In this document: positions 35,412 through 37,013 of the stretch, piece after piece
How the letters are laid out: the number at the start of each line of letters is the position of its first letter
Numbering within the stretch: position 1 is the stretch's first letter
Source: a bacterium
Lineage (GTDB): Bacteria; Verrucomicrobiota; Verrucomicrobiia; Chthoniobacterales; UBA6821
DNA length: 37,013 bases
Direction: 5' to 3'
NCBI GenBank assembly: GCA_021849805.1
Contig: JAJZSL010000013.1
Location: forward strand, 1-37,013
Position numbers and translations under genes: made by a program
Notes under the pieces: model-generated
What the model saw: the letters and a program-made list of their open reading frames with translations, nothing else
What the model was told of the DNA's origin: nothing
Database searches by the model: none

Positions 35412-36428
35412 ATGAAAGAGCTCAGTATTCTTCTTGTGCGTCGCGATAATATTGGAGATCTCCTCTGCACAACGCCACTCATTGATGGTCTTCGCAAGAG
35501 GTATCCACGAGCTTTCTTAGCTGTGCTTGCTAGTAGTTATAATGCTGAAGTATTAGATGGGAATCCTCAGGTCGATCGAGTTTTTATTTTTCCGAAAAAA
35601 CATGAGGAGAAAAGCATACACTATTTTTTTTCCAAACTTTGGAAGCGATGGCTCCTAGTAGAGGAAATTAAAAAGTATTGTTTCGATTACGTTATTCTAG
35701 CTAATGGTGGTTGGCGCTATGGTCGCCGCCTAGGAGGCAAACAGACAATTGGATTTCGAGAACGAAAACGCTCAGAGCATCAACAACCAAGTATTCTTCT
35801 TCCTTTAGAAAAGGAGACTCAAGAAGAACATGAAGTTTTGAAAATGGCTCGCCTTGGTGCTCTACTAGGCGTTCAAGAAGCTACTGGCCCACTGCATATT
35901 TTTCCACAAAAAGAAGAATGTGAGCGCCAACAAAAACGTCTCCTTCAATTAGGCTGGGATCCTTCGCTGCATACTATTGGTTTGCACATTAGTTCTAGAA
36001 GACCAGAACAGCGTTGGCCAAAGGAATTTTTTGTAACTCTAGCGCGTGAGCTCATGAAGAAAAGCAAGAATCAAATTTTCCTTTTTTGGTCTCCAGGAAA
36101 TAGTAATAACCGCATGCATCCTGGTGATGACGAAAAAGCAATGTGGATTCTTGAGCAATTAAAAGGGAAATATATTTTCCCTTGTCCAACAAAGAAATTA
36201 CGAGAGCTCATTGCATCTCTCTCCTTGGTTGATCAAATAATTTGCAGTGATGGGGGAGCTATGCATGTTGCTGCAGCTCTTCAAAAACCAATACTCTGTT
36301 TTTTTGGAACAAGTGATCTTTCTCAATGGCACCCGTGGAGAGTGCCTTATGAAGTCCTACAGCCAGTATCAAAAAATGTTGCCGATATTCGTGTCGAAGA
36401 TGTTTTAGAGAAACTGAGCAATTTATAG
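35412..36428 (+). CDS. glycosyltransferase family 9 (heptosyltransferase-like)
   Basis: The 338-residue product resembles the GT9 enzymes that add heptose to lipopolysaccharide core. The N-terminal Rossmann-like domain has LLVRRDNIGDLLCTTPLIDG (about residues 6-25), the typical (R)xDxIGD motif with the catalytic Asp. The C-terminal domain contains HISSRRPEQRWPKEFF and ICSDGGAMHVAAALQKPILC (near 278-297), with the conserved D-GG-MH-A motif followed by FFGTSDLSQWHPW. It should act on the inner face of the cytoplasmic membrane in making an envelope glycan. The exact sugar is not known. It follows queE by 79 bp. The gene ends at an AT-rich hairpin. Confidence 0.92.
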   Translation: MKELSILLVRRDNIGDLLCTTPLIDGLRKRYPRAFLAVLASSYNAEVLDGNPQVDRVFIFPKKHEEKSIHYFFSKLWKRWLLVEEIKKYCFDYVILANGGWRYGRRLGGKQTIGFRERKRSEHQQPSILLPLEKETQEEHEVLKMARLGALLGVQEATGPLHIFPQKEECERQQKRLLQLGWDPSLHTIGLHISSRRPEQRWPKEFFVTLARELMKKSKNQIFLFWSPGNSNNRMHPGDDEKAMWILEQLKGKYIFPCPTKKLRELIASLSLVDQIICSDGGAMHVAAALQKPILCFFGTSDLSQWHPWRVPYEVLQPVSKNVADIRVEDVLEKLSNL

Positions 36429-36456: not shown

Positions 36457-36592
36457 TAAATTTTTGAAAAAAAACAAAAATAATTTAAAAAAAAGATTGA
36501 ACACTGCTCAAAGGTCGTATAGAAGGGACGCCGTTTTTTTAGATCTTTTTGTGAGAACAAAGAGCTTCTTGTTTGACAGAGAACAAGAAGAA

Positions 36593-37013
36593 ATGAGCAC
36601 AATTCCCCACTACCCCCCAAGCACTGTGTATCAATATAAACTTTTAGGTCTTTTTTTCATTCTCTTCACTTTTTTCTTAACTCCTCATGAGCTAAAAAGT
36701 CATGATTCTCATAGTTTAACTAACGAGAATGATTCCGATTCTTCATTGCTGAGTAGTAAAACTTCAAAAACTCACACTCATGCTAAGCACCGAACAGCTA
36801 CATCAAATAGAGCTCCTTATAAAAAAACAATTCCTGGAGTAGTTCCCGGCTTCACACCTGGAGTTGTAGCAGGTTTCACGCCCGGGGTGAATCCAGGAGA
36901 GATTCCTGGTATCGACCCTGGCAACCCTGATAACCGTGTTGTGGGTAACCCCAAGGGGAGAGAAGTTGGTAAGACTGATGGGACTCCCGGCGTCAATCCA
37001 GGAGAGATCCCTG
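36593..37013 (+). CDS. secreted Pro-Gly-rich repeat protein, truncated by the window end
   Basis: A frame starts at ATG 36593, preceded by AAGAAGAA, and is still open at the last base (140 codons visible). It has a hydrophobic export segment, YKLLGLFFILFTFFLTP (residues 15-31), then a Ser/Asp/His-rich polar region to about 75. After that come repeats built on Pro-Gly: IPGVVPGFTPGVVAGFTPGV and NPGEIPGIDPGNP. The motif PGVNPGEIP occurs at residues 97-105 and again from 132. The DNA of those two units (36881-36908 and 36986-37013) matches at 25 of 28 bases, and this part looks richer in G and C than its surroundings. The pattern resembles elastin- or collagen-like surface proteins. Function and full length are unknown. 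Confidence 0.7.
   Translation, partial: MSTIPHYPPSTVYQYKLLGLFFILFTFFLTPHELKSHDSHSLTNENDSDSSLLSSKTSKTHTHAKHRTATSNRAPYKKTIPGVVPGFTPGVVAGFTPGVNPGEIPGIDPGNPDNRVVGNPKGREVGKTDGTPGVNPGEIP

Follow-up and report, generated by a model that had tools for sequence, protein, structure and literature searches.

The gene at the contig edge

The window, by which we mean the whole 37,013-nucleotide stretch of DNA that was analysed, is the entire contig C2 of an 18-contig, 1.68-Mb genome, and it ends in an open frame on the forward strand that starts with an ATG at 36593 and remains stop-free through 140 codons and one further base to the last nucleotide (36593..37013). Since the window is a whole contig, the gene is interrupted by an assembly break, which falls within a repeat; we read the frame as the probable 5' part of a Pro-Gly (PG)-repeat autotransporter gene whose likely continuation lies on a second contig (C3:3-1850). 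Upstream, and outside the repeat gene, the same strand encodes a glycosyltransferase of family 9 (heptosyltransferase-like; 35412..36428; PF01075, E 2.9e-23). Two tandem RNA hairpins, a possible 5'-UTR structure, are predicted just before the start codon (36545..36590, + strand; z -3.96), with a stability of -18.2 kcal/mol for 81 nt, the highest among the 25 start regions compared; the second hairpin covers a purine-rich stretch that may be the ribosome site. The start regions of the repeat-bearing genes of a sister species, G002 (-11.9), and of contig C17 of this genome (-5.5) are without an equally stable structure, and an Rfam search with the hairpins returned one match, at E 0.87 and under its gathering score.

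The encoded protein begins with a 16-residue N-region followed by the hydrophobic segment LLGLFFILFTFFLTP (residues 17-31; 36641..36685, + strand), which has a mean Kyte-Doolittle value of 2.27. The AF2 model of the window part contains a single helix, at residues 9-29, with pLDDT near 89. An earlier interpretation of this DNA made from its letters (hereafter, the sequence-only reading) placed an export segment ahead of the repeats, and the hydrophobic stretch agrees with this; the signal is putative, and a clear Ala-X-Ala cleavage site was not seen in it. Between this segment and the repeats lies a linker rich in Ser, His, Thr and Lys (36686..36832, + strand), which is predicted to be disordered from its sequence and from pLDDT values of about 50-59 across most of its length.

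A Pro-Gly array with a period of four

Codons 81-140 of the frame form an array in which PG recurs every four residues, together with the insert GNPDNRVVGNPKGREVGKTDGT (36833..37013, + strand). The PG dipeptide spacings in the window gene are 4, 4, 8, 4, 4, 4, 23 and 4, and TRF detects a 24-nt period at 36833-36879. The nonapeptide PGVNPGEIP opens a 105-nt unit at residue 97 (36881..36907, + strand) and, exactly 35 codons later, opens the next one at residue 132 (36986..37012, + strand), which is interrupted by the window edge; about one and a third units are present within the window. The two copies differ at 3 of 27 bases, and all three differences are synonymous. The array is beyond chance: residues 79-140 contain six PG..PG motifs, whereas 20,000 composition shuffles gave 0.1 on average and never more than 3, and this gene alone among the 54 window frames of at least 100 aa contains the motif. 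GC content is 54.7% over 36824-37013 vs 41.0% window-wide, a value unmatched by any other sampled 190-base stretch, and GC3 is 42% in the repeat vs 27% in the remainder of the gene's window part; much of the increase stems from the CCN-GGN codons of the repeat, but GC3 is raised as well. The repeated nonapeptide with its spacing, the local rise in G and C and the difference from the rest of the window (the other 53 frames lack PG..PG) had all been pointed out in the sequence-only reading, and we confirm each of them.

The same reading also described the product as elastin- or collagen-like. A matrix protein of this kind would be in keeping with a Pro- and Gly-rich, exported product; however, the period is 4, rather than the 5 of elastin or the 3 of collagen. 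The window array, in which PG spacing is 4, 8 or 23 and never 3, has neither collagen Gly-X-Y triplets nor elastin VPGXG pentapeptides; furthermore, no Pfam family was found for the window part at E 0.01, and the C-terminus, if assigned correctly below, is a barrel. We regard an elastin- or collagen-like protein as very improbable. The PG unit itself matches no Pfam or NCBIfam model above cut-off. FliH models of NCBIfam scored 12-15 bits (cut-offs 192-293), and a PDB entry labelled 'ARID domain-containing protein' was matched at E 2.6e-4 and at 6.4e-5; both were read as composition effects. AF2 yields no fold for the array, with pLDDT mostly near 50 outside helix 9-29, which is consistent with disorder, although a single-sequence model is weak evidence for it.

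Probable continuation of the repeat on a second contig

A DNA search of the genome with the feature gave nine matches, comprising C2 itself, the first 229 bases of contig C3 and an array on contig C17, and a protein search agreed. C3 starts within the same repeat in a compatible frame that stays open for 615 codons, and of the locations in this genome at which the repeat was found, just two reach a contig end, namely those at the end of C2 and at the start of C3. In the shortest join, constructed by analogy with copy 1, 9 nt are missing and the frame is kept, while any number of further units may be absent; if C2 joins C3, the protein has at least 140 + 4 + 615 = 759 residues. If C3 is the continuation, the repeat also runs past the window edge, as the sequence-only reading expected, and neither an early stop nor an end of the repeats is what follows position 37013.

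The best evidence that C2 and C3 belong to one gene is that their units resemble each other more than they resemble those on C17: DNA identity is 91-92% between C2 and C3 and 94-100% among the C17 units, vs 81-87% between C2/C3 and C17, which suggests that units have been homogenised within each locus. We infer the join from the frames and from this grouping. Gene order speaks neither for nor against the join. In three other genomes (G002, G004 and G005), different genes lie downstream of the glycosyltransferase gene, the first of which we take, by eye, to be carboxypeptidase-like. Beyond this gene, G002 has what is presumably, again by eye, a 6-phosphofructokinase-like gene, whose protein has no match in the present genome at E 1e-60 and was found in 7 of the 11 genomes searched.

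Alternatively, C2 and C3 may be two different genes that share the repeat, in which case the window gene would encode a barrel-less exported PG-repeat protein like that on C17. The presence of the same repeat in the unrelated exported C17 protein, which ends without a barrel, would fit two genes, as would a join that is spanned by no assembly, read or long contig and supported by no synteny; on the other hand, two genes would require two more unseen repeat contig ends although the genome is rated 97.5% complete, the units of C2 and C3 group apart from those of C17, and the frames fit. We therefore consider two genes quite unlikely and proceed with a single gene spanning C2 and C3.

The C3 part of a probable type Va autotransporter

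The C3 frame contains one Pfam domain, the PF03797 autotransporter beta-domain (residues 336-593 of 615; E 1.4e-37; 130.3 bits vs a cut-off of 26), which is the sole PF03797 match found in the genome. An autotransporter domain had been named beforehand as something to look for, and it is present on C3 and, if C3 is the continuation, on the window gene. The beta-domain lies at the C-terminus, as in type Va proteins, and the C3 protein ends in WSVGIKF, with the terminal aromatic Phe of that class. It matches AaaA by sequence (9oqa, E 4.7e-7), and proteins matching it occur in 27 of the 38 genomes searched, this genome counted; the named relatives come from Spartobacteria, Chthoniobacterales and other Verrucomicrobia assemblies. 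One Spartobacteria relative (L029) is 50% identical to the C3 protein over its length. Its AF2 model, computed from an 11-row alignment (mean pLDDT 80.5), has short beta strands at 8-121, helices at 124-208 and a barrel at 248-538, and Foldseek placed this model with AaaA, EstA, EspP, BrkA and NalP. The C3 part can be assigned to the autotransporters with good support; the same assignment for the window part hinges on the join.

The relatives differ from the present protein in what precedes the barrel. PATR passenger repeats, which are common in the beta-helical passengers of type Va proteins, score in both relatives scanned and gave no match in the C3 frame at E 0.01. In all seven of the long autotransporter frames taken from relatives (L057-L063, 1064-3559 aa), PG..PG occurs no more than once per frame. 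Between the array and the barrel of the C3 protein lies a short passenger remnant that aligns to a relative. Because the relatives carry a long beta-helix with PATR and this protein a short remnant, the array seems to occupy the place of the beta-helix. We consider it probable that the window gene encodes the N-terminal portion of a classical (type Va) autotransporter, joined to C3 and bearing an N-terminal PG array. Such a protein would resemble the PF03797 type Va autotransporters (the AaaA, EstA, BrkA, EspP and NalP translocators) in its putative export segment, passenger, helical linker, C-terminal barrel and terminal Phe; unlike its type Va relatives, it would be without most of the passenger beta-helix and have the PG array instead.

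The array in other exported proteins

On C17, the array is the C-terminal tail of an exported protein that ends without a barrel (L011 3893-7559). Its first 454 codons, up to a 10-N gap within the array, include a signal-like N-terminal stretch, and no Pfam family was found in them; the N-terminal domain gave weak matches alone, in 3 of the 35 genomes besides this one, each belonging to the same genus. The gap indicates that the assembler had trouble here, and it could mark a false join, such that C2 pairs with the C-terminal half of the C17 gene and its N-terminal half with C3. This arrangement is hardly credible, since the units flanking the gap share 94-100% identity and differ from those of C2/C3, and since the gene is flanked on the same strand by genes that we take, by eye, to be gcvT and gcvH, which are adjacent in four of the eight other genomes where both were found.

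Within the taxonomic order, the array matched 4 of 213 genomes, of which two were kept, namely this genome and G002, in which it is attached to different proteins. The other two genomes lie outside the genus: the matches in G039 were TPGL and QQPG low-complexity runs and those in G053 lay in stretches without a frame containing more than two PG..PG; both genomes were dropped from the family. In G002, the array follows a signal-like N-terminus in a 504-codon frame on contig C13 that is ended by the contig edge, and on that genome's contig C3 it occurs in a 996-codon frame, just before a stretch of weak FGE-sulfatase similarity. The 996-codon frame is located downstream of an autotransporter barrel end that is 66% identical to the barrel of the present genome, where an FGE-sulfatase-like gene (L010 2028-3110; PF03781, E 6.1e-23) follows the autotransporter; the FGE-like part of the G002 frame is 31% identical to this gene over 166 positions. 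Given these pairs of barrel and FGE-like sequence in both species, the array sits in different genes of a similar two-gene neighbourhood. The C13 frame of G002 was not accepted as a proven autotransporter, as it is truncated at the edge of its contig and the 125-residue tail does not match the C3 protein significantly (E 0.46).

Read in antisense, the arrays likewise yield a PG-repeat frame, of 155 aa at C17 (L011 4174-4641, + strand) and 122 aa at G002 contig C3; we take this to be mechanical, because CCNGG encodes PG on both strands.

Selection and age of the units

The units were compared over 26 codons, for which substitution rates are necessarily rough. Between C2 and C3, six codons changed synonymously and one did not; between C2 and each C17 unit, the corresponding numbers are 10 and 2 (dN/dS about 0.04). 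NG86 estimates for pairs involving C2 or C3 range from 0.017 to 0.035 for dN and from 0.39 to 1.07 for dS (dN/dS about 0.02-0.05), and the C2-C3 pair, with dS about 0.39, shows almost no amino-acid change. Several different Pro and Gly codons are used across the units, and two loci retain the insert GNPDN.VVGNP.GREVGKTDG. As judged from these substitutions, the amino acids of the array are held by selection while the DNA drifts, which argues against pure slippage as well as against recent expansion in this gene. Neutral low-complexity sequence generated by replication slippage, without a function of its own, would agree with the 24-nt and longer internal periods of the array and with its narrow distribution; however, the predominance of synonymous change between units, the variety of Pro and Gly codons and the retained insert all speak against it, and we judge such an origin unlikely.

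The sequence-only reading had considered the repeat to be recently expanding, which does not fit this gene: at dS of about 0.39, the C2 and C3 units are not especially young, and fresh copies occur at C17 only, where three of the four units are identical over 78 nt, as expected of a fresh duplication. The same substitution estimates argue against recent exchange of units between the C2/C3 and C17 loci.

Proposed design of the protein

In type Va autotransporters, an N-terminal signal leads to Sec, the BAM machinery inserts the barrel, and the passenger exits C-terminus first, so that the position most distant from the membrane would fall to an N-terminal array. In the design that we propose, the N-terminal hydrophobic signal would send the protein through the inner membrane, the C-terminal part on C3 would provide a helical linker and an outer-membrane beta-barrel of the 12-strand type, and the short beta-helix passenger remnant would stay outside the cell. 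The PG array would then form the outermost N-terminal tip, exposed at the surface, where relatives have a long beta-helix. With a Pro-Gly turn per four residues, it would probably be an extended, flexible, unfolded arm, which could space the cell from something or stick it there as a flexible surface stalk, spacer or adhesive tip. Of the earlier description as a surface or matrix protein, export and a probable surface location stand, while a matrix role is not supported, given the probable outer-membrane beta-barrel at the C-terminus.

The export design is ordinary, but the repeat is lineage-specific and common to an unrelated exported protein. More tentatively, and with the balance of probability on the other side, the PG unit might be a lineage-specific surface module under strong amino-acid selection, grafted onto different exported proteins, with a shared binding or assembly property, and replacing the beta-helix of the autotransporter. 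Its carriers, on the same tentative footing, might be the autotransporter, the exported protein between gcvT and gcvH, and the sister-species frame with FGE-sulfatase-like similarity beside an autotransporter barrel. If true, the sharing of the array among otherwise unrelated exported proteins of one small genome would illustrate in a simple way how a surface module spreads within a lineage, and it would suggest how an unfolded arm can take the place of a long autotransporter passenger.

Comparison with known repeats

In the standard picture, the repeats of pertactin are loops on a beta-helix, whereas the array described here is N-terminal to the passenger remnant. Pertactin of Bordetella is an autotransporter with repeat regions of the types (GGXXP)n and (PQP)n (PMC3279416); it is alike in having Pro/Gly repeats in an autotransporter passenger and different in repeat unit and length; neither motif occurs in the 140 window residues. 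The accessible part of a report on a Gracilibacterium describes a PTD repeat with a 9-nt unit (PMC6851277). The protein is predicted to be extracellular, its Pro-containing repeat breaks the assembly and varies synonymously, a surface protein unrelated to it has the repeat as well, and the gene is flanked by stem-loops. That case closely resembles ours in the assembly-breaking repeat, the synonymous variation, the sharing by unrelated surface proteins and the stem-loops by the gene; it differs in the 9-nt unit, in that the same part of the report mentions no autotransporter domain (PMC6851277), and in that the sharing is between two organisms, compared with genes of one genome here. Within the parts of these two sources that were available, neither repeat has the present PG unit. 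Among the open-access papers listed on Spartobacteria or Verrucomicrobia autotransporters, on proline-glycine or elastin-like repeats in autotransporters and on Pro/Gly tandem repeats of surface adhesins, none describes this repeat in its title or in the start of its abstract. Such genes escape notice because assemblies break, or leave gaps, within their arrays.

A further autotransporter barrel, on contig C16 of G002 (L076 1-320), is truncated. Its frame is lost before the end and the final barrel strand turns up in a different one, as would be seen after an internal deletion or through a faulty assembly.
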